Assembly (NCBI RefSeq): GCF_003550015.1
Contig: NZ_QXEV01000001.1
Coordinates: 62,001 to 126,000 of the forward strand
Length of the DNA: 64,000 bases
Source: Anaeroplasma bactoclasticum
GTDB lineage: Bacteria; Bacillota_I; Bacilli_A; Acholeplasmatales; Anaeroplasmataceae
Reading direction: 5' to 3'
How positions within the stretch are numbered: the first letter of the stretch is position 1; the number at the start of each line of letters is the position of its first letter. The translations under genes were made by a program, and so were the position numbers. The notes under the pieces were generated by a model that was not told the origin of the DNA, searched no databases, and worked only from the letters and a program-made list of their open reading frames with translations. Of this stretch, positions 7,822 to 43,488 are shown in pieces.

Positions 7822-8412
7822 ATGAATGAAGAAATTAAAAAGCTAGAGGATGTAAAGACCTTAATGGAATCCTTTATGGATGCTTTAGCGAAATATTATA
7901 AGAACTCCTTAACAAGAGAAGTCGTATTTGCGGGAATGATTTTAAAGAAATCCTTAGATATATTAGATTCTGCGGAAAATGCATTAAAGAAATACAATAT
8001 AACTGTTCAAATATCTTTGTTAAGACTTTTGTGTGATAATTGTCTTGCTATCCAATCCGTAAAAGAGCTTGGTCTTAAAACAGTAATGGATATGATTCAA
8101 AACAATGAAAGAGTAAACAATTATATGGTAAGCGAAGAACAAAACATGAGTGATGGGTATTTAAAAAGATTAGTTGATGAAACCTATCCTGGGTTTGGTA
8201 GGGTATATAAATTTGCCTGTGACTCTGTACACTTTTCAAAGCAAGCTATGGCAACAACCTTTGTAAAAGATAAGGATGGTCATATTACTCCCCATGTAGA
8301 AGTAGGAAATAAAGAATTAAAGGATTCCTTAATATCTAATAATGGTTCATTAATCACTGTTGCAAAAATAATTTTAGACATGTTAAAGCATGTTTGCATA
8401 GATAAAGAGTAA
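7822..8412 (+). CDS. Soluble helical protein of unknown function (possibly DUF5677-like)
   Basis: 196 residues, predicted mostly alpha-helical with no signal or membrane segment. The C-terminal FACDSVHFS resembles the Cys/His-containing helix of DUF5677-type, HEPN-related proteins, but the similarity is weak and I would not assign a function. The upstream GGTGGTGG is a modest RBS. It is followed by a strong terminator and is probably co-expressed only through readthrough of the terminator at 7765. Confidence 0.6.
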   Translation: MNEEIKKLEDVKTLMESFMDALAKYYKNSLTREVVFAGMILKKSLDILDSAENALKKYNITVQISLLRLLCDNCLAIQSVKELGLKTVMDMIQNNERVNNYMVSEEQNMSDGYLKRLVDETYPGFGRVYKFACDSVHFSKQAMATTFVKDKDGHITPHVEVGNKELKDSLISNNGSLITVAKIILDMLKHVCIDKE

Positions 8413-8413
8413 A

Positions 8414-8440
8414 AATGAGAGTCAAACTCTCATTTTTTGT
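8414..8440 (+). terminator. Intrinsic terminator after the 7822 gene
   Basis: AATGAGAG-tcaaa-CTCTCATT hairpin followed by a T-run. Confidence 0.9.
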
Positions 8441-8460
8441 TTTCTTTTTGCATAAAATTT

Positions 8461-8623
8461 ATGAAAATTTATGAAAATGATTTGCAAATTCAATGAAAGT
8501 AAATGAAAATTTGCAAAAAATCATACAAAATATGGTTAAAATGTACCAAAAACCATATTTTTTCTTATGAAAATGATATGAAAAAGTTTTCATAAAAATA
8601 TGAAAATGGTTACATATTTTCAT
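8461..8623. repeat. Cluster of ATGAAA(AT) repeats upstream of the microprotein operon
   Basis: Seven forward ATGAAA copies (8461, 8471, 8493, 8503, 8567, 8578, 8600), most as ATGAAAAT, plus two reverse TTTTCAT copies (8587-8593 and 8617-8623). The density far exceeds neighbouring intergenic DNA. It could be a regulator-binding array or a bent upstream activating region; no iteron origin genes accompany it. Confidence 0.5.
8527..8566 (+). terminator. AT-rich hairpin with T-run, orphan terminator or operator
   Basis: AAAATATGGTT (8527-8537) and AACCATATTTT (8551-8561) are perfect 11-base arms around a 13-base loop, followed by TTTTTC. Since the 7822 gene already ends at 8414-8440, this is either a second terminator, the end of a short untranslated RNA, or a protein-binding palindrome. 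Confidence 0.5.
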
Positions 8624-8668
8624 TTTTATTAAGGGGTATATAATAGCAGCTGTAGGAGGGATAAAGGT

Positions 8669-8827
8669 ATGAATACACTACTTATTGTTGTATTAGTAGC
8701 TTTAGCAATCGCAGTCATTGCTTATCTTTCCAACGTAACACTTGATATGAGTGGTAACGCGAAAGGTAAATGTAATTCTGAAGATTATCAGATTGCAGAT
8801 AAGATTGCCGCAAAAAGAAATAACTAA
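8669..8827 (+). CDS. Membrane microprotein 1 (52 aa), GKC-DY family
   Basis: Short gene behind TAGGAGGG. It translates to 52 residues: a hydrophobic helix at residues ~4-20 (starting MNTLLIVVLVALAIAV) and a hydrophilic tail carrying GKGKCNSEDYQIADKIAAK. The tail matches the next two proteins, with an invariant Gly-Lys-Cys, Asp-Tyr and Ile. Likely a single-pass membrane peptide with its single Cys just outside the bilayer. First of three tandem paralogues with a TATAAT at 8639-8644. Function unknown. Confidence 0.8.
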   Translation: MNTLLIVVLVALAIAVIAYLSNVTLDMSGNAKGKCNSEDYQIADKIAAKRNN

Positions 8828-8892
8828 TACATAGAATTAAAAGATTATAAATTAAGATATATTGAAAGATCAAAAACTAGGAGGAAAAAATT

Positions 8893-9048
8893 ATGAGTAC
8901 TTTATTAACATTAGCATTATCAGTTATTGCAGTTGCAGTTGTATATTATTTATTTACTACTTTACCAGATTCAAAGGGTTTAGGTAAGGGTAAGTGCAGC
9001 GAAAAGGATTATGAAATTGCTGATAAGCTTGCAGAAAAGAAGAATTAA
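8893..9048 (+). CDS. Membrane microprotein 2 (51 aa), GKC-DY family
   Basis: 51 residues behind TAGGAGGA, 65 bases after the first copy. It starts MSTLLTLALSVIAVAVVYYL (one membrane helix), then LPDSKGLGKGKC and SEKDYEIADKLAEKKN. It shares LPD-x-x-G and SEKDYEI with copy 3, including 29 identical bases (8989-9017 equals 9193-9221), which indicates recent duplication or strong conservation. Charge pattern suggests the helix is a signal-anchor; topology is not determined. No known family recognised. Confidence 0.8.
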   Translation: MSTLLTLALSVIAVAVVYYLFTTLPDSKGLGKGKCSEKDYEIADKLAEKKN

Positions 9049-9099
9049 TTAGATTTTATAAATTGAAATTGACTTAAACGATATAGGAGGATTTTAAGT

Positions 9100-9255
9100 A
9101 TGACAACATTAGTTACATTGGTATTATTAGTTTTAGCAATTGCTGCTACAGTATATTTATTCACTTTACCTGATATGAATGGTTTTGGTACAGGTAAGTG
9201 CAGCGAAAAGGATTATGAAATCCAGGAAAATGTTGCTAAAAAGAATAATATTTAG
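9100..9255 (+). CDS. Membrane microprotein 3 (51 aa), GKC-DY family
   Basis: 51 residues behind ATAGGAGG, 51 bases after copy 2. The N-terminal helix starts MTTLVTLVLLVLAIAATVYL, followed by FTLPDMNGFGTGKC and SEKDYEIQENVAKKNN. The tail differs from copy 2 mainly after DYEI (QENV for ADKL), so the GKCSEKDYEI block is the conserved core. The operon closes with a 13-bp-stem terminator. Strong ribosome binding sites on all three suggest abundant proteins. Confidence 0.8.
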   Translation: MTTLVTLVLLVLAIAATVYLFTLPDMNGFGTGKCSEKDYEIQENVAKKNNI

Positions 9256-9286
9256 TTTTAAGTGTTTTTGAGTGTTTTGTTTTAGG

Positions 9287-9320
9287 AAAGAGTTAGCGCG
9301 AGTGCGTTAACTCTTTTCTA
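9287..9320 (+). terminator. Strong terminator of the microprotein operon
   Basis: AAAGAGTTAGCGC (9287-9299) pairs with GCGTTAACTCTTT (9304-9316) around GAGT, then TCTATTTTT. Confidence 0.9.
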
Positions 9321-13630: not shown

Positions 13631-16600
13631 ATGAAAAAGAAGATAATTATTACAATAATTATATTGCTAGTGACAGCCATTTTGGGAGTTGGTGGCTATT
13701 TTATTTATGCCATTAACCAAGGACCAGCAGAAATAGAGGATACCGATGCAGAGTTTGAATCTACTCTCCTAGAGGCTCCTAAGGATGGATCTGATCCATC
13801 AAAATATTCTGTTGAAGAGAATGTTTCTTTTGCACTTTGGACTGTTGCAAACACCAATGAGTTTTATACACTAACTACAGGTACAGCCCAAGCCTCTGTT
13901 GCAACTCAGCAAATCTATAATAAAAGAGTTGTTAAGGATAAAAAGGCAATGACTACTATGATTTCTTCAGGATTAGTATCTACTGCCAAGCAAAAATATT
14001 TCTTACCAGATAAGGTATTATTAAGAGATGCAACAAGCATAAATGGCGATACTGCAACATGGATTACATCAGCTCCTGAGGCAGTTTCTTATAAAACAAT
14101 TCAAAAAAGATATGGTTGGTTACCTTATCAGGCAACAGGCTATATCATTTGTAGCGATACATATATAAATAAAGAAGAAATGAAAATGGTAGATAACCAA
14201 GATGGTACATTTACTTTAATTTTTGATTTAGACCCAGATGGAAATAAAGCACCATTTTGGTATAGAAGAGAAGTATTAACAAATGCGAATTCTTCAATTG
14301 TACCAGAATTCTATTCTATTCATTTTGAAATGACAATTAATTCTTCTTGGCAAATTCTAGTTGATGATATCCAAGAACAATATAAAGTAAAATCTATGGG
14401 TGTTGAGGCAGTAACTAAAACAAATTGTCATGAGGAATTCTATTATGAAAATGTAGAATTTGATAAAGAACCATATGATTATTTTGAATCCTATGCTTAT
14501 TTATCTGTATTAGAGGATGAGAAAGAGGATTTACCAACTTCAGATGATGCTATGAGCATTATTGTTGAATCCTTACAAAATAAAGATAAATCCGATACTG
14601 TATTAGATTTATCCATTTCTACAGATGGTTTTAATACTCAAGGATTAGTATCCTTAAATATTACTGATTTAACAAATATTAAGGTTTATGCATTGCTAGA
14701 GGATTTATATGTTGAATATACGGATTCCTTATATCTTTCTATAGGTGGAATTAAAGTGAAAGCCAATATGGATGATTTAACAACACTTATAGAAACAATA
14801 ACAAGTGTTTTACCATCTAGTGATACAGGTAGTTCTTTAGATGTTTCTAAAATCATGGATGATTTAGCAAAGTCTAAGATGGAAGATGATGGAGTTAATG
14901 TAAGTATTGATACAAAGCTAGATTTAATGGGTATATTATTACCAATTCATTTCGATATCATACATGAGGATGATACCTATAAGCTTGTTTCTGCAAGTGC
15001 AGATATAGATTTAAATGGTGAGATTATCCATTTAGGAATTAAATCTACAAACAAAAAAATAAATCCATTAGATCATAAGGATTTCATGGATTTAAAGAAT
15101 TTAGATTTCATTGTTTCGGATATAGTATCTATTATTGAAAAGAAGAACCTAGATTTATCCTTAGAATTAGAATATAGAGGATTAAATATAAAATTAGATG
15201 GCAATTTATCTTTTGAAAATGAAATTAAGCTAGATTCTAAGATTAATTTAACTTATGGGAAGGATACCTTATCTTTAGATTTATATTATCTAGATGATAC
15301 TATTTATTTAGGCTTTAACAATATTAAGCTAAAGATTACAACAAATGATTTATTAAGATTAATTGAAAAGTATTCAGGTAAGACTATTGATTTAAATATG
15401 TCTTTAGACTTTAATTTAACAACTATTTTAGAAACTGTCTTCTCTATTGATTATGATAAGCTATTAGAAGAATTAGTGATTACAGATAATAGCTTAGATT
15501 TGGCATTATCCTTAGAAGAAATCACAGATTTAATCCATTCTATTAAATTATCTATTTTAGATACAAATTATGGTATTAGTGGCTCTATTGCTATAGATGA
15601 TATTCATGCTTCCTTTAAGGTTGGTAATTTGTCTTATAAGACAAGAACAATAAACAAAGAAGATTATTATAATTTAGCATACCTAGAAGGCTTCATCGAT
15701 GATGCGATTTGCTTATATAAGGATGGTAAGCTTGGCTTTGATTTATCTATGGATTATAAGGATTTACATATAGCTGGTAGTGGTATTTTAGATTATTCTA
15801 CTAATATTCAATTATCAGTAAATCTAGAGGTAAATTATAAGGAATTAAATGTTGAATTAAGTGCTTCTTATATTGAAGATATCTTATATTTAGATATTTT
15901 AAATACAAAGCTTATGATATCTAAAGATGATTTAATTAAGATTGTATCTAAATTTACTGATTTAAATACAAATAGCTTAGATTTATCCTTAGATGGAATA
16001 CTTACTATTTTATTCAAAATGGATTATGAAAAGCTAATTAAAGAATTAGTAATTGAAGAGAATTCTATAGATATAGCCTTAGATATATCTAGCTTTGTAG
16101 ATGGTATGAATTCTATTTCATTATCTATTAAGAAGGATAATGGAATTAACGTTTTAGCACTTATCAAAGAAGCAACTATTCATTTAAATATCCATTCTAC
16201 AAAGAATAGTGTTAGTGTTACTGGAGATTATCAAAACTTAGGATATATTGATACTATCATAGATGATATTCTTGCAATATATAATTCTAAGAAATTAAAT
16301 GTAGCTTTAAGCTTAAGCTATAAGGGATTAGATATCGAAGCTACAGGAATTATAGATTTTAATGATTCTATTCGTGCTTCAGTAAATTTAGAGGTAGCTT
16401 ATCAAAATAAAGCTATTTCCTTAGATATTTATTATATTGATGATTGTATATACTTAGATTTTGATGATTGTCATATCCTATTATCTAAAGCAGATTTAGA
16501 AAAAATCATTGCATTATTTAGTGATAATAATGAAAGTGAATCTATTCTTGATAATTTACTTTCTATCGATTTTGAAGAAGTATTAAAAGCAATATCTATT

Positions 16601-19600
16601 ACAGAAGATAATATCAGATTAGATATGAACCTAAGTAGTATCATATCCTTCTTAAGTGATATTTCTATTACACTTAAAGATATTTCATCAAGCATTGGTT
16701 TAGATATTTCTATTAAGGATTTATTTGATGTAAATATTATTGCATCAAGCTCTAATTCAGATATCCTATTACCTTCTTTTGATTATCAGGATTTAGGTAA
16801 GCTATATAGCTTATTTGAAATGATTAAAGGAATAATAGATAATAAGGGAATTTCTTTAAATGTTTCTTTAGAATATGAAGATATCAAAATTAATGGAAAT
16901 GGTAATCTTCTATTTAAGAATAATTTAAGTGCAGAGTTTAATTTAAATGTATCCTATAAGACATTAGAAGAAGATATTCAAGTTCAGTATTTTGATTCTT
17001 TCAATGATATGAATAAGGTTTTATTCATTGATTTAGGAAATAATCATTTAATGCTACCATTATCTATCCTATTAGAAGATACTTCTAGTATGAAGGTAGA
17101 AGATATTATAGACATAATCTTTAGTGTTGATTTTACTAAGGTATTAGTATCTTTAATGATTGAAGAGAATAAGCTAGATTTAACATTAGATTTAAGTGAT
17201 TTTGATTCTTTAGAAAATATTATAGATATTCATAAGGATATTTATCTTGAATTATCTATTTTAGACGGAGTCTTATCGATAGCATCTAGTGAAGTATTGA
17301 ATATTCAAGCATCTATTTCTTTATTTGATGGTGATATTACACCTAGTGATAATACATATGTTGATTTAAGTAATATGGTATCGAATATTAAAGAATTTAT
17401 TTCTTGGATAAAGGAAGATTCCTTCAAGGTATCTATAGATGGTAATATTCAAATTAAGTCTATTTCAATCGATTTAAATGGCTCTATTGATTTCATTTTA
17501 GAAAATGATAAATATAATCTAAATGGACATTTCCATATTGAAGCATTCCATACATTACATGATGTTTATTTTAAACTAGTGGATAATGTTTTATATCTAG
17601 AATATGGAGATGCTACCTTTGGTATTGATTTATCTAACATGAATGAATTTATAGAAGAAGTATTTAGTATATTTGGTCATACTTCTCCTGATTTTGATTT
17701 TAAAGAATTAGATTCTATTATTGATTCTTTAGAAATCAGTGAAGATAGTATTTCTATAGATTTATCTACATTAGTTGATTTCATTACAAAAATTACAATA
17801 GCTTTAAGCTATAGTAAGAATGATGAAATGTTTAATATTCATATATCTAGTGATGAAATTAATCTAAATACATCTATTGCTAAAATAACTAATTATGCAG
17901 TTTCATTACCAACTGAATATTTAGACAATGAAGATATCTTATCTTTATGTAGAACAATAAAAAGAGTAATAGATTTATTAGATAAGAGAGATTTCAATTT
18001 GAATTTAGATTTAGATGTTATGGATAATGGCTATAAGCATCTTAATATTAATGGTAATCTTATGATTCATCTTGGTACAGAAGAATTAAAGGATTTCAAG
18101 ATTGATGATTTATCCTTTAAAGCTTCTATAGCTATTACTGAATATGAAGAGAATGGTAAGATTAAAGTAGTTCATAGAGTAGATTTAACATTAGTATCTG
18201 ATATGGTTTATATCGTATATGGAAACAATGAATCTAATCTTTCTAGCAAGATTAAATTCTATGCAGAAAAGGATTCTATATTCAGTGTATTAGCATCTAT
18301 AACCTCTGTATTAGGATTAGATTTAGATTTCTTAAATGATTATATGAATCAGGATTTATCCTTTGTTGATATATCTCAGCTTAAGGATCTATTTAATTTT
18401 GAAAGTAAAGATTTTGATGTATCTAGTTTAATTAAGAAATTAGATATTACAGAAGATGGTCTTGAGGTATCTATTTTAGCTTCTGTATTAAATGATATAA
18501 TTCCTTCTAGTAAGCTTGTTACAGTAAAGCTAGAGGCTAAAGATGATATTCCACTTTCTTTAGAGCTTTTAGGATTATATACAGATTATGTAAGCGAAAA
18601 CGAATATACAAGAATTGATTTAAATTATTTGACATTAACAAATGATTCTATATCTATTAATGCTCCAAGTGATTTATCTAGCTATTATAATATTTTTAAT
18701 ATTGATGAGCTTGTAAATGGAATATTAACAACAGCATCCAATAAGGATTATGCAATTTCAGGCACGGTTACTTTAGGATTGCCTATCGTTTCTGATATTG
18801 ATGTAAATATTGATGCTAAAGTTAGAGTGCTAGAGGATGGCTCTCCACTAGTTTATCTTCATTTAGATATGTCAAGCTTGCCACTTCTTGCAAAGACTAT
18901 AGGTTTAAAGGAAAAAGATGTATATTTCTATTACATGGATGGATATGTATATATTTATAGAAAAGAATCTTCAACAACTTACAAGTTAAAGGTATCTTAT
19001 CAGGAATTCTTTGATGATATTATGTATTATTTAATGGATTTCTCCTTGGGTATGCCAGAAATCATTTTAAACGCAATTAATTCATCTACAAACGAAAATG
19101 AAGATTATGTCATTGATGCAGGTACTGTAATTAATAGCTATTCTTATAATAATCATAAGTTTAATTTCTCCTTAGATATGGAAGCATTAACTGGTAATTC
19201 TAATTTAGGAGATATGTCTTTAAGCTTAGTATTAAAGAATATGGCAATATCTAAGAATTCTGATGGAACTATTAATACATCCTATGCATTAACAGAAATT
19301 GCGAACTTTGAATTTAAATTAGTAAGTGTCATTACACTTGGTTCATCCTCTATTGCCTTAACAAATACATATAATGAAGATGGTTATACTTGGTTTAAAT
19401 CTATTAATATGGATGATGTAGTATCCTTTATAGAAGGCTATTCTTATGGTACAGATATGATTTATAAGAATGATACATATATCGGTAAGAGAAGCCATAC
19501 AATTACATTTGTTCTAAATTATTTAGATAATGAGTATTACCAAGCTCAAACCGGAGCTACAATTAAATATCCAAATTTAGATATAGTAGAAGTTGATGGT

Positions 19601-20953
19601 AAATATTATTTATTTGATGGCTGGTATTCGGATAAGTATTTGAAAGAAGAATTCACAAGTACAACTATGCCAGAATCAAATATTAAGGTTTATGCAGCTT
19701 GGAAGGAAATCCATTATTATGATTTAACTATTCATTCCATGGATGGAAATACAGTTGAATCTGTATATGGTGGAGCTAGCTTAAGTACATATTTAGATAA
19801 AGAAGTATATACAGATTCCTTAGGTGATAGTTATATTCTAAAGGGATATAGCTATACTCTAGATGGTGATATTGTATATATTTCTTCCATGCCAAATGAT
19901 AATTTAGTATTATATGCTAAATGGGAAAAGGTTTCTTATAAGGTTTATTTAGATGATACTTATTATATGGATTTAGCATATGATACAAATTTAGCTTTAA
20001 CTAAGGATTACTATTTATCTATTGATAATGCATATTTTGAATTTGATAAGGATTATTTAAATTATGAAACATTAGTTGTTAAATATAATAAATATTTAAC
20101 TATCACAGATGGTATTGGTTATATTTATCTATATAGTGATGCATCTAGCCTAGGTGATTATTATATTGTAGAATTAGATTATGATATCGAAAAGTTTAAT
20201 GATAAGCTATATAAAGCTGTTGCTTTAGACAAGAATATGGACTTTGATAGCAAGTATTTACCAAGTGGTGTATATAATCATATGAATATTAATTATTGGT
20301 ATAATAATCAAGAGGAATACCATTTAGGTAATATTCATTTATTACCTCATCAAAATACTACTTTAAAGGCATATTATGCAACCTGTGATTATTTATCCTA
20401 TGGATATGATATGGCAACAGGAGAAAGCTTACTTTCTGTTACAGGCTTTAATTATTCTGGAAGTGATTTAATTACAATTATTTTACCTAAGTATGTTAAA
20501 GTAGATGGTAGCTATGAAATATTAAGATCCTTAGCGTTGTTTGTAGATGACGATAATAATAAATATACAGTATTTACAAATAATAATAAGATATATGCAA
20601 TATACTTTAATGATGGATTTGAAGTAATTGGAGATAATGCATTTAAGGATGCTATCCAATTAACAAATGTATATTTTTCTAATACTATAACTAGTGTTGC
20701 ATCCGATGCCTTCTATATGACTGTTGGCTCTAATGCGGAGGCAAATGCAGCTTATGCAGAAAAGATTAGATTCTACATGGGAATTGGCTTTATGGCATCT
20801 AAGGCTAATTGGCTTGCTTCTAAATGGAATTCTACACCTAGATATTATGGTGAAAAGTATAGTGGATTCTTAGGTATGGGTAAGGCAGATTTATCTTTAG
20901 CATTTAATAGCTATAGTGGTGATTTAAGAGACATTGTTCATAGCTTAATATAA
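13631..20953 (+). CDS. Giant repetitive surface-anchored protein (2440 aa)
   Basis: One uninterrupted 7.3-kb frame. Residues ~5-27 are a membrane anchor; the rest should be extracellular. From ~307 to ~1800 there are about eight units of ~190 residues, with unit starts near 307, 488, 681, 870, 1055, 1245, 1438 and ~1687. Each has a short helix (e.g. YIDTIIDDILAIY), then alternating beta strands (SLSYKGLDIEATG, NLEVAY, YYIDDCIYLDF) and a helix ending near LEKII. At ~1954-2103 are two Listeria/Bacteroides-type (InlB B) repeats, recognisable by FDGWYSDKYL and VYAAWKE. A BspA-like leucine-rich segment (IGDNAFKDAIQLTNVYF) lies near 2325. No LPXTG. Adhesion or cell-envelope function is inferred. 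Confidence 0.85.
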   Translation: MKKKIIITIIILLVTAILGVGGYFIYAINQGPAEIEDTDAEFESTLLEAPKDGSDPSKYSVEENVSFALWTVANTNEFYTLTTGTAQASVATQQIYNKRVVKDKKAMTTMISSGLVSTAKQKYFLPDKVLLRDATSINGDTATWITSAPEAVSYKTIQKRYGWLPYQATGYIICSDTYINKEEMKMVDNQDGTFTLIFDLDPDGNKAPFWYRREVLTNANSSIVPEFYSIHFEMTINSSWQILVDDIQEQYKVKSMGVEAVTKTNCHEEFYYENVEFDKEPYDYFESYAYLSVLEDEKEDLPTSDDAMSIIVESLQNKDKSDTVLDLSISTDGFNTQGLVSLNITDLTNIKVYALLEDLYVEYTDSLYLSIGGIKVKANMDDLTTLIETITSVLPSSDTGSSLDVSKIMDDLAKSKMEDDGVNVSIDTKLDLMGILLPIHFDIIHEDDTYKLVSASADIDLNGEIIHLGIKSTNKKINPLDHKDFMDLKNLDFIVSDIVSIIEKKNLDLSLELEYRGLNIKLDGNLSFENEIKLDSKINLTYGKDTLSLDLYYLDDTIYLGFNNIKLKITTNDLLRLIEKYSGKTIDLNMSLDFNLTTILETVFSIDYDKLLEELVITDNSLDLALSLEEITDLIHSIKLSILDTNYGISGSIAIDDIHASFKVGNLSYKTRTINKEDYYNLAYLEGFIDDAICLYKDGKLGFDLSMDYKDLHIAGSGILDYSTNIQLSVNLEVNYKELNVELSASYIEDILYLDILNTKLMISKDDLIKIVSKFTDLNTNSLDLSLDGILTILFKMDYEKLIKELVIEENSIDIALDISSFVDGMNSISLSIKKDNGINVLALIKEATIHLNIHSTKNSVSVTGDYQNLGYIDTIIDDILAIYNSKKLNVALSLSYKGLDIEATGIIDFNDSIRASVNLEVAYQNKAISLDIYYIDDCIYLDFDDCHILLSKADLEKIIALFSDNNESESILDNLLSIDFEEVLKAISITEDNIRLDMNLSSIISFLSDISITLKDISSSIGLDISIKDLFDVNIIASSSNSDILLPSFDYQDLGKLYSLFEMIKGIIDNKGISLNVSLEYEDIKINGNGNLLFKNNLSAEFNLNVSYKTLEEDIQVQYFDSFNDMNKVLFIDLGNNHLMLPLSILLEDTSSMKVEDIIDIIFSVDFTKVLVSLMIEENKLDLTLDLSDFDSLENIIDIHKDIYLELSILDGVLSIASSEVLNIQASISLFDGDITPSDNTYVDLSNMVSNIKEFISWIKEDSFKVSIDGNIQIKSISIDLNGSIDFILENDKYNLNGHFHIEAFHTLHDVYFKLVDNVLYLEYGDATFGIDLSNMNEFIEEVFSIFGHTSPDFDFKELDSIIDSLEISEDSISIDLSTLVDFITKITIALSYSKNDEMFNIHISSDEINLNTSIAKITNYAVSLPTEYLDNEDILSLCRTIKRVIDLLDKRDFNLNLDLDVMDNGYKHLNINGNLMIHLGTEELKDFKIDDLSFKASIAITEYEENGKIKVVHRVDLTLVSDMVYIVYGNNESNLSSKIKFYAEKDSIFSVLASITSVLGLDLDFLNDYMNQDLSFVDISQLKDLFNFESKDFDVSSLIKKLDITEDGLEVSILASVLNDIIPSSKLVTVKLEAKDDIPLSLELLGLYTDYVSENEYTRIDLNYLTLTNDSISINAPSDLSSYYNIFNIDELVNGILTTASNKDYAISGTVTLGLPIVSDIDVNIDAKVRVLEDGSPLVYLHLDMSSLPLLAKTIGLKEKDVYFYYMDGYVYIYRKESSTTYKLKVSYQEFFDDIMYYLMDFSLGMPEIILNAINSSTNENEDYVIDAGTVINSYSYNNHKFNFSLDMEALTGNSNLGDMSLSLVLKNMAISKNSDGTINTSYALTEIANFEFKLVSVITLGSSSIALTNTYNEDGYTWFKSINMDDVVSFIEGYSYGTDMIYKNDTYIGKRSHTITFVLNYLDNEYYQAQTGATIKYPNLDIVEVDGKYYLFDGWYSDKYLKEEFTSTTMPESNIKVYAAWKEIHYYDLTIHSMDGNTVESVYGGASLSTYLDKEVYTDSLGDSYILKGYSYTLDGDIVYISSMPNDNLVLYAKWEKVSYKVYLDDTYYMDLAYDTNLALTKDYYLSIDNAYFEFDKDYLNYETLVVKYNKYLTITDGIGYIYLYSDASSLGDYYIVELDYDIEKFNDKLYKAVALDKNMDFDSKYLPSGVYNHMNINYWYNNQEEYHLGNIHLLPHQNTTLKAYYATCDYLSYGYDMATGESLLSVTGFNYSGSDLITIILPKYVKVDGSYEILRSLALFVDDDNNKYTVFTNNNKIYAIYFNDGFEVIGDNAFKDAIQLTNVYFSNTITSVASDAFYMTVGSNAEANAAYAEKIRFYMGIGFMASKANWLASKWNSTPRYYGEKYSGFLGMGKADLSLAFNSYSGDLRDIVHSLI

Positions 20954-39060: not shown

Positions 39061-40413
39061 TTATTTTTCTTTTTTATAAGGCTTTCTTTTCTTACCAATA
39101 GCCTTATTAGTTGTTGGTTTTCTATCAGCTTGAATAGGTTCTGTTTTATTAATGGAAAACATAATCCTGTTTCTTAATCTTTGAAAGTTTGTATATCCAT
39201 TTGATACTTTAATTATTGTTTTAATGTCACTATTTTTACGTTCTAAATTCCCATTGGATATTCTATACCCATTGAGCCTAAAAAATGAATTAATTATTTC
39301 AACTTTCCATTCGTTTAATAGGTATCTAAATTTGTTATATTCTTTTATGCCACAAGTTCTAAATGCTTCATATATTTCATCGAATCTTTCCGCGGCATTT
39401 TCGTATGAAGCTGTTAAATTAAATTCTCTATAAGCTTCTTTTAAGTAATACGCCACTTTTAATTCGTCGCTGACTTTTAACATAGTTTCAATCAGTAGTG
39501 CAATAGTCATGGTTTGGTGAGTTTTTCTTATTTCTATTGTGACACTTGGATCTTTGATATTCTTTAATAAAAGCTTCCAAAATTTTTTAAAGTACCAATA
39601 GTAATAAGAATTCTCCTTTTTCAAATTCTCAAAACTTTTCATAATTCGAATCCTTACTTTATTAAAGGCTTCATTTAGGTTTTTAATTACATGAAAAGAA
39701 TCAGCACAAACAGCAGAATAAGGTAGACATAGCCTAGAAATATCGCGATAATTCCTATATAAATCCATAGATACAGCAAATACCTTTTCTTTTTCTTCTA
39801 TAGGTATTTTAGCAAAATAATCAATTAAGTAATTCTTATGTCTACAATCAAGAACATCAATTATCTTATGATTAATAGGATCATATAATACGCAGCAATA
39901 ATTATATTTTGATACCTTCTTGATATATACCTCATCAATAGCCAAGACTTCTGGTAGATGTCCTCTTTTTATATCCACTTTCTTGTCAAAAAGATTTTGA
40001 ACATAAGTAGTAGATACACCATATCTTTTCGCAACAGAAGTAAATGTAGCATTAATATCTTTTAATTCTTCTAAAATCAATACATCGTTAATATGTGTAC
40101 TCTTTCTCCCTTGTAAAATAAATGGATTATCTTGTTGAAAATAAGAGAGACAATCATCACATTTATAAACATGATAATATAGTTTAATTCTGATGTCTTG
40201 TTCATTCTTATTCGCATGAATAAATTCTCTAGATTTAGTACCTCTAGAAATAGTATTTTTAGAATCACAGTAAGGGCATTTAACATTAGTTTCTTTCTTT
40301 AAATGTAAAACTATGATATGATTGAAATTACCTTGATCATAATCCTCTGAACATTTATCTAAATCAAATAAATCAGGATTAACTCCAAGGTGTTTAATGG
40401 AATCAAATTCCAT
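39061..40413 (-). CDS. ISL3-family transposase
   Basis: 450 residues, full length. N-terminal zinc finger (CPYCDSKN and CDDCLSYF), HTH (TFTSVAKRYGVSTTYVQNLF), then the DDE domain: first Asp in LPEVLAIDEVYIKK, second in SMDLYRNYRDISRL or nearby ADSFHVIKNLNEAFNKVR, and Glu in the C-terminal NGNLERKNSDIKTI. Strong RBS (AGGAGGAT on the minus strand). No lesion visible, so it is probably active. Basic C-terminal tail. Confidence 0.93.
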   Translation of the reverse strand: MEFDSIKHLGVNPDLFDLDKCSEDYDQGNFNHIIVLHLKKETNVKCPYCDSKNTISRGTKSREFIHANKNEQDIRIKLYYHVYKCDDCLSYFQQDNPFILQGRKSTHINDVLILEELKDINATFTSVAKRYGVSTTYVQNLFDKKVDIKRGHLPEVLAIDEVYIKKVSKYNYCCVLYDPINHKIIDVLDCRHKNYLIDYFAKIPIEEKEKVFAVSMDLYRNYRDISRLCLPYSAVCADSFHVIKNLNEAFNKVRIRIMKSFENLKKENSYYYWYFKKFWKLLLKNIKDPSVTIEIRKTHQTMTIALLIETMLKVSDELKVAYYLKEAYREFNLTASYENAAERFDEIYEAFRTCGIKEYNKFRYLLNEWKVEIINSFFRLNGYRISNGNLERKNSDIKTIIKVSNGYTNFQRLRNRIMFSINKTEPIQADRKPTTNKAIGKKRKPYKKEK

Positions 40414-41959: not shown

Positions 41960-43339
41960 TTATCCATCCTCCTTAGAATAGCCTACGAAGTAACAAAGGT
42001 CAGGAACAATTTCCAGTGTAGCTCCGCAGTGACAAAGTAGTGGGTCATATTTATATGATGAAATGAGTCTTACTCTCCAATTTAGATTAGACTTCATTTT
42101 GGCAATTTCTTTCCATTTGAAAAGTTTTGGTTGGTGCATTATGTCAAGGGAAGAATGATTAGCATAGAAGCCGTAATATCTAGTTGTATGAACGGCTTTG
42201 TTAGGTATATGAACAATTAATTTAGCTATAAAATCAAAAACAGACTCAGTAACATATTGTCTACCAATTTTATCATTTTCATTGATAATGGCATCATCTT
42301 CATGTGGGTCGTAATAATAGTATATCATTTTTGTATCTTTATTGTAGGAGATAATTCTTGATTCACTCATCGCAGGATGTCCTGCATATCTACAAACATA
42401 GTTTACAATCTTCTTGATTTGATTAGGATTTTTACATTCTTTTTGAGGAGCGTGAACATAGAAGCCTGATTCATTTTTCTTATATAATTCTTTCTTAATT
42501 TTGAAAAACTCATCTATATCATTTTTGTCATTTATCCCTTTAAGAAATTTATACATTCTTTTTAATAACTGGTTCATAAAAGATTTTCTTAAAGAATCAT
42601 AATTGAAATAAGAATATGGTTTTCTCTTTCCGTTTTTGTCGATAGTACATTCAGCAATCAAAGTATGGATATGAGGGTTAAATTTTAAATCTCTACCAAA
42701 AGTATGAAGAGTAGAGATAAAGCCTAAACGTTCGTTTCTTTTTCTGGCGGCTTTAGATTTACCTTGAATGAGATGAGTTAATACATCATTAACAGCTCCA
42801 AACAATTCATCGAATAGGTCCCTATATTTTTGAAAGAACCATCTAAGTTCTTCAGCAATAGTCCAAGTGATATGTCTATGAGGGGCATAGATACAAGTCT
42901 TAGATATTTCATTCGCTCTAGCATCTCTATATTTTTTGCCACAAGATACACAAAATCTAGAATGACAAGATAATCCTCTAACATAAATGTCGTGACAATT
43001 AGGGCATTCATAGAACAAGTAGCCACTATTGAAGTTTCTACAATTAATCATACTATCAACATTACTTAAAATAGCATCTCTTAGGGGAATACTCTTCCTA
43101 TTACAGTATTCGACAAAGTAACCCCAGTTATCTTTGAAAACTTCCTGAATGGTAATATGATTATTTTCTTTTCTAGCGTAAGCAAGATTATTAAGTTTAT
43201 TATATTCATTTTCATAAACATCCTGTCCAGCTTTAGCAGCATCTAAAAGAAGATGAGAAAGGTATCCTCTTTTAGCGTGAACATAATAAGGGTTAGATTT
43301 AATTTCTAAAGGTAAATAATCAGTTACGATAGAAGCCAT
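41960..43339 (-). CDS. IS91-family HUH transposase
   Basis: 459 residues. Start at 43339 (MASIVTDYLPLE) follows GTGGTGATTTT; the upstream in-frame Met at 43381 is unsupported. Zinc-binding region CPNC...CHSRFCVSCGKKYRD, then the HUH nuclease motif in FNPHIHTLIAE, and the tyrosine segment YVCRYAGHPAMSESRI with two Tyr, as in Y2/IS91-type rolling-circle transposases. Ends with CHCGATLEIVPDL. Intact. Confidence 0.9.
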   Translation of the reverse strand: MASIVTDYLPLEIKSNPYYVHAKRGYLSHLLLDAAKAGQDVYENEYNKLNNLAYARKENNHITIQEVFKDNWGYFVEYCNRKSIPLRDAILSNVDSMINCRNFNSGYLFYECPNCHDIYVRGLSCHSRFCVSCGKKYRDARANEISKTCIYAPHRHITWTIAEELRWFFQKYRDLFDELFGAVNDVLTHLIQGKSKAARKRNERLGFISTLHTFGRDLKFNPHIHTLIAECTIDKNGKRKPYSYFNYDSLRKSFMNQLLKRMYKFLKGINDKNDIDEFFKIKKELYKKNESGFYVHAPQKECKNPNQIKKIVNYVCRYAGHPAMSESRIISYNKDTKMIYYYYDPHEDDAIINENDKIGRQYVTESVFDFIAKLIVHIPNKAVHTTRYYGFYANHSSLDIMHQPKLFKWKEIAKMKSNLNWRVRLISSYKYDPLLCHCGATLEIVPDLCYFVGYSKEDG

Positions 43340-43488
43340 AAAATCACCACTATCTATAATACAGGAAAAAAGCCAAAACAAAAAGAGGGCAACGCCCTCT
43401 TAGAAGAATGGCAGAAAGATTTCTAATCTTTTGACATTCTATTTTTTATTAACAAAAGAAGAATAAATTCACTTTTTATTTTGGTTTA

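Follow-up and report, generated by a model that had tools for sequence, protein, structure and literature searches.

The window, a 64,000-nucleotide stretch of Anaeroplasma bactoclasticum DNA, carries a short operon of three tandem genes coding for proteins of 52, 51, and 51 residues, with coordinates and lengths as originally predicted. The window copies are designated w1 to w3, with a1 to a3 denoting the copies in the related genome G019 and b1 and b2 those in G022. The locus contains the following features:

8411-8437, no strand assigned: terminator of the upstream 196-aa gene, bidirectional in appearance, which parts the operon from its upstream neighbor (terminator search and alignment)
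8565-8630, plus strand: putative repeat/operator region, conserved and promoter proximal (three-species alignment)
8567, 8578, and 8600, plus strand: ATGAAAA direct repeats in 11-bp phase, upstream of the -35 in all three species
8577-8594, plus strand: palindrome TATGAAAAAGTTTTCATA (three-species alignment)
8600-8624, plus strand: ATGAAAATGGTTACAT (ATTTTCATT) (three-species alignment)
8617-8644, plus strand: putative sigma-70 promoter, TTTTCA - 16 nt - TATAAT (10/12 matches)
8669-8827, plus strand: small membrane protein gene copy 1 (w1), 52 aa, orthologous to a1 and b1
8893-9048, plus strand: small membrane protein gene copy 2 (w2), 51 aa, assigned by homology to the other copies
9100-9255, plus strand: small membrane protein gene copy 3 (w3), 51 aa, assigned by its likeness to copy 2
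9283-9320, plus strand: intrinsic terminator at the end of the operon, ahead of the carbonic anhydrase gene

The ribosome-binding site proposed for each gene is an exact AGGAGG, spaced 9, 8, and 9 nt from the ATG of copies 1, 2, and 3, respectively, and the same hexamer precedes all eight genes of the three species; the TATAAT described ahead of the operon lies at 8639-8644. Three terminator-like sites were found against an expectation of 0.1. The one on the 3' side of the operon, which is preceded by a stretch conserved with G019, was correctly anticipated, although its stem has 17 pairs, including G-U pairs, rather than the 13 first reported.

Copies 2 and 3 are 62% identical, copies 1 and 2 are 49% identical, and copies 1 and 3 are 45% identical. 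With copy 2 as the query, only the three copies are found in the 2.2-Mb genome, the other two at E values of 1.4e-14 and 5.6e-11, so the likeness among them is not a matter of chance. All three share M-x-T-L, GKC, DYxI, and A-x-K, as in the end-to-end pattern first described, but the LPD element of that pattern does not hold for copy 1, which reads TLD. Copies 2 and 3 do have exactly 29 identical bases in their tails, and these two copies may have exchanged sequence.

An undescribed family in three genomes of one genus

Among 55 genomes of the taxonomic family, a profile of the eight copies has convincing matches only in G000 and G019 (three copies) and G022 (two copies), all members of one genus. 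The other 52 genomes in the search have no homologues, none that are credible were found in the remaining genomes of the order sample (160) or in 395 genomes of the class, and GTDB contigs, IMG/VR, phages, and plasmids hold none beyond the same two loci. Matches of the eight-row profile in the order, class, and family, at about 21 bits or less, are at chance level, and frames of 740 to 760 aa with a GKCN-x-x-Y stretch, FeoB-neighbor-like small proteins, an ABC ATPase, and others were rejected as relatives on the same grounds; a match in G001 (E = 4e-4) was rejected because it contains two stops and no sensible ORF. The original prediction recognized no known family, and this is borne out by comparisons of the small proteins with Pfam-A (best E = 0.16), NCBIfam (best E = 0.042, far below the cut-offs), PHROGs (best E = 0.025, not significant), and PDB (best E = 0.85, no relative). 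It had also named a lack of homologous small ORFs in related genomes as grounds for giving it up; homologues with a kept reading frame are present in two other species. This small-protein family is real and undescribed, is restricted to three genomes of one genus, and is of the unannotated kind that gene finders and family libraries miss. Its reality has independent support from orthology, codon bias, and promoter conservation, but the finding is limited in reach by how narrowly the family is distributed.

The gene order is kept in the three species and consists of an AEC-type carrier (PF03547), a gene for a 196- to 198-aa protein, the small genes, a beta-carbonic anhydrase (PF00484), and a gene for a 280- to 295-aa protein, so that the loci in G019 and G022 occupy the same place as in the window, upstream of the beta-carbonic anhydrase gene. 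The 196-aa gene (7822-8412) has no Pfam match and is kept in 20 of 27 genomes of the genus; in the other genomes that carry it, the small genes are absent from its downstream side, as read in forward-lying loci only. Its product is 87% and 76% identical to that of the window in the two other carrier genomes versus at most 60% elsewhere, which indicates that the three genomes are each other's closest relatives, and the family therefore seems either to have arisen in a single clade or to have survived there. Copies w1, a1, and b1 group as orthologues with bootstrap support of 98/95, and the later copies are not separated in the tree. The neighbors of the 196-aa gene change among genomes of the genus and include an AEC carrier, a GGDEF-like gene, and a MATE-like gene. 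Elsewhere in the window, 13631-20953 codes for a 2440-aa protein that has many repeated segments and a membrane anchor at its N terminus, and a similar protein starts at the matching place in G019 (L044, position 8961); two transposase-like ORFs with zinc-finger-like Cys motifs lie on the minus strand at 39061-40413 and 41960-43381.

That the carbonic anhydrase gene lies 3' of the small genes in each of the three species raises the question of whether the small proteins are its accessory proteins in bicarbonate or CO2 handling, for example as membrane anchors. However, a strong terminator lies between them, and the link is rejected as very unlikely because 11 further genomes of the taxonomic family carry the carbonic anhydrase gene without the small genes and with different neighbors. 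In four of these 11, all of the same genus as the window, a desulfoferrodoxin-like gene lies immediately ahead of the carbonic anhydrase homologue or overlaps with it (L076, 1157-1498; L077, 1158-1508; L079, 1091-1483; and L080, 1136-1495, with coordinates given after turning the carbonic anhydrase gene to the plus strand); the one desulfoferrodoxin-like gene that was compared with Pfam matches PF01880 (E = 3e-7), suggesting a superoxide reductase/carbonic anhydrase gene pair.

Evidence for translation

The eight copies have 51 to 52 codons each, keep their frame, and stop at about the same place, with only codon-sized differences in length, and residues T3, Y19, L20, G33, K34, C35, D39, Y40, A47, and N51 are invariant in all of them. 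pN is lower than pS in 28 of 28 pairs. The closest orthologue pair, w1 and a1, has a dN/dS of 0.62, which is not clearly below 1 because the synonymous divergence of the pair is itself low. Codon use was scored, conditioned on amino acids, against a ribosomal-protein table from the same genome as the window (L066), and it is ribosomal-protein-like in five of the eight copies (w2, w3, a3, b1, and b2; p of 0.0045 or below), borderline in w1 (p = 0.065) and a2 (p = 0.055), and not significantly so in a1; the flanking AEC, 196-aa, and carbonic anhydrase genes have low scores. Between the window and G019, pS is 0.18 for copy 1 and 0.46 to 0.64 for five flanking genes.

Taken together, the kept frames, the excess of pS over pN, the codon use, and the low pS of copy 1 support translation of the three ORFs into probably abundant proteins, and it is very likely that these are real, translated membrane proteins, in agreement with the strong translation signals and abundance proposed at the outset, for which the AGGAGG sites and codon bias also speak. 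The unusual nucleotide conservation of copy 1 could also be taken to mean that the ORFs are not genes but chance frames overlapping a conserved promoter or regulatory RNA, although this is hardly credible in view of eight in-frame copies with protein-level constraint, codon bias, and a ribosome-binding site each. The RNA fold of copy 1 is unremarkable (z of -1.4) and the operon region has no Rfam match, which gives no support to a structured RNA in copy 1.

Protein features

Hydropathy peaks of 2.3 to 2.8 over 19 residues predict one membrane helix in all eight copies, and a structure model from the eight-row alignment (mean pLDDT of 71, pTM of 0.37) contains helices at residues 2-23 and 37-49, with GKC in a low-confidence linker just before the second; the hydropathy and this model of moderate confidence thus support the one-helix-and-tail architecture first read from the sequence. 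The sequences have no n-region charge, signal-peptidase-like site, or lipobox, which weakly favors a membrane-anchored protein with its tail in the cytoplasm. The hetero-oligomerization and the disulfide, lipid, or metal role of the Cys raised in the original prediction are speculative. The linker has a net charge of -1 to +2, with Lys near the helix end, the tail has a net charge of -1 to +1, and the amphipathicity of the tail helix is not above that of shuffled tails (p of 0.08 to 0.43).

Small size, tandem paralogy, one hydrophobic helix, and a narrow distribution would also suit toxic or antimicrobial peptides, either hydrophobic peptides of the type I toxin kind or multipeptide bacteriocins from tandem genes, but we regard this as quite improbable. 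The locus was searched for the antitoxin of a type I toxin (Fst/Ldr/TisB-like) and gave no Rfam match to an antisense RNA family and no clear antisense promoter, the promoter-like sites being near background, and neither a stable syntenic position nor ribosomal-like codons are expected of a toxin that is kept silent. Bacteriocins of the double-glycine or multipeptide leaderless types are rejected on account of the tail charge, the lack of a double-glycine leader, and a neighborhood that includes no dedicated exporter or immunity gene.

A conserved promoter block

Positions 8565-8645 are nearly identical in the three species, exceeding the remaining intergenic sequence in conservation, and the -10 (GGTATATAATA) is fully identical; this conserved block is new beyond the original prediction. 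Its elements are ordered as TATGAAAAAGTTTTCATA, 22 bp further on TATGAAAATGGTTACATA, and then TTTTCATT, which contains TTTTCA, the likely -35. Two palindromes, ATGAAAAAGTTTTCAT and ATGAAAATGGTTACAT, are spaced 22 bp and overlap or adjoin the -35, and the TGAA-N6-TTCA inverted repeat at 8577-8594 is present in the three species (TGAAAAAGTTTTCA; in G022, TGAAAAAGGTTTCA). With up to three mismatches, the second element occurs once in each of the three gene-carrying genomes and in none of the 52 others, with zero control matches. ATATGAA-N6-TTCATAT, with at most one mismatch, has nine sites in the 2.2-Mb genome, two of which are those described here, 22 bp apart, and the rest equal the control count; a regulon search of this genome with three versions of the operator found nothing above the reversed-pattern control. 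Because it is confined to the gene-carrying genomes and other sites in the window's own genome occur at the control rate, the operator-like element seems to belong to the small-gene operon alone, and such a uniquely conserved promoter predicts regulation of one operon.

More ATGAAAA repeats with a phase of about 11 bp lie upstream of the promoter block, at 8455-8520 of the window and at 1840-1884 of L045, and their number varies by species. The 11-bp phase is equally compatible with curved DNA or with an OmpR/PhoB-type response regulator. The repeats at this phase upstream of the -35 in three species, together with the codon bias and the exact AGGAGG of all eight genes, are consistent with a very strong constitutive promoter, in which phased A-tracts would act as an UP element or curved-DNA activator and the proteins would be an abundant structural component of a wall-less membrane. 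However, conservation reaches the ATG/CAT ends and the dyad symmetry and not only the A-tracts, and proteins that serve as a general component of the membrane should occur in further species of the genus as well, not in just three, making this reading somewhat unlikely; if it is true that the proteins are major membrane components of wall-less bacteria, they would be of interest to membrane biologists.

Proposed function

The reading we prefer is of an operon, free-standing and regulated, whose products are two or three paralogous, probably abundant single-pass membrane proteins of 51 to 52 aa, specific to a single clade within the genus. Residues 2-23 or so would form a membrane-spanning helix at the N terminus, the tail would lie in the cytoplasm, and another short helix (about residues 37-49) would start right after GKC. 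The proteins may form a condition-induced membrane accessory set that inserts beside a membrane enzyme or transporter or assembles with itself, and where the tail helix starts, the invariant Lys-Cys could be a functional contact or a thiol- or metal-responsive point. Palindromes that lie over and beside the -35 point to a dedicated DNA-binding protein as the regulator, and metal or thiol stress would be the first candidate inducing condition because TGAA-N6-TTCA resembles operators of the SmtB/ArsR type.

The computed support consists of conserved frames, the tail motif, synteny, the promoter element, and codon bias in most copies. Against this mechanism, the operon holds only the paralogues and no partner gene, and the window's own genome has no further operator copy that would hint at a regulon. 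We put the probability of a regulated, lineage-specific small membrane accessory set, taken as a whole, at about 0.35. A more specific version, in which the paralogues assemble with one another, carry a functional cytoplasmic Lys-Cys, and are induced through a dedicated palindromic operator as the stress module of one clade, is unlikely; if true, it would represent a new lineage-specific family of abundant microproteins in wall-less gut bacteria.

Comparison with known systems

The small Cys-bearing membrane proteins that neighbor FeoB (L014) similarly consist of one helix and then a tail containing Gly, Lys, and Cys, but they contain several Cys residues and lie beside feoB in L014, whereas the proteins described here have one Cys and feoB is 45 kb away. 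Subthreshold profile matches to proteins like these (G072, E = 0.0065; G432, E = 0.0015) are mainly to the helix and at about chance level, and identity with FeoB-associated Cys-rich membrane proteins is rejected, given the one Cys and neighbors that are the 196-aa and carbonic anhydrase genes. L014 belongs to a genome of the same taxonomic family, and its positions 1281-1617 contain two overlapping small membrane protein ORFs (51 and 69 aa, with several Cys) beside the FeoB-like gene, with a weak match to DUF4083 (E = 0.0018).

In promoters of the SmtB/ArsR type, the operators take the form of 12-2-12 inverted repeats positioned on or close to the -35 or the start (PMC8790569), and the TGAA-N6-TTCA palindrome likewise lies over or close to the -35 in one or two copies. 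The likeness differs in being one of sequence only, and the arms are partly A-tract rich and fit phased direct repeats too.

Small single-pass membrane accessory proteins are often stress induced (PMC12719787 and PMC6005532), and according to the same sources proteins of the CydX, AcrZ, KdpF, and YohP type are, like those of the window, about 50 aa or less, with one hydrophobic helix, a short polar tail, and no catalytic domain. One membrane helix in fewer than 60 aa, which characterizes the CydX/AcrZ/KdpF type, was found here (hydropathy of 2.3 to 2.8; model helix at 2-23). No sequence relation to this type was found, and the operon described here has no partner complex in it; it differs further in coding for two to three tandem paralogues with an invariant GKC...DY tail.
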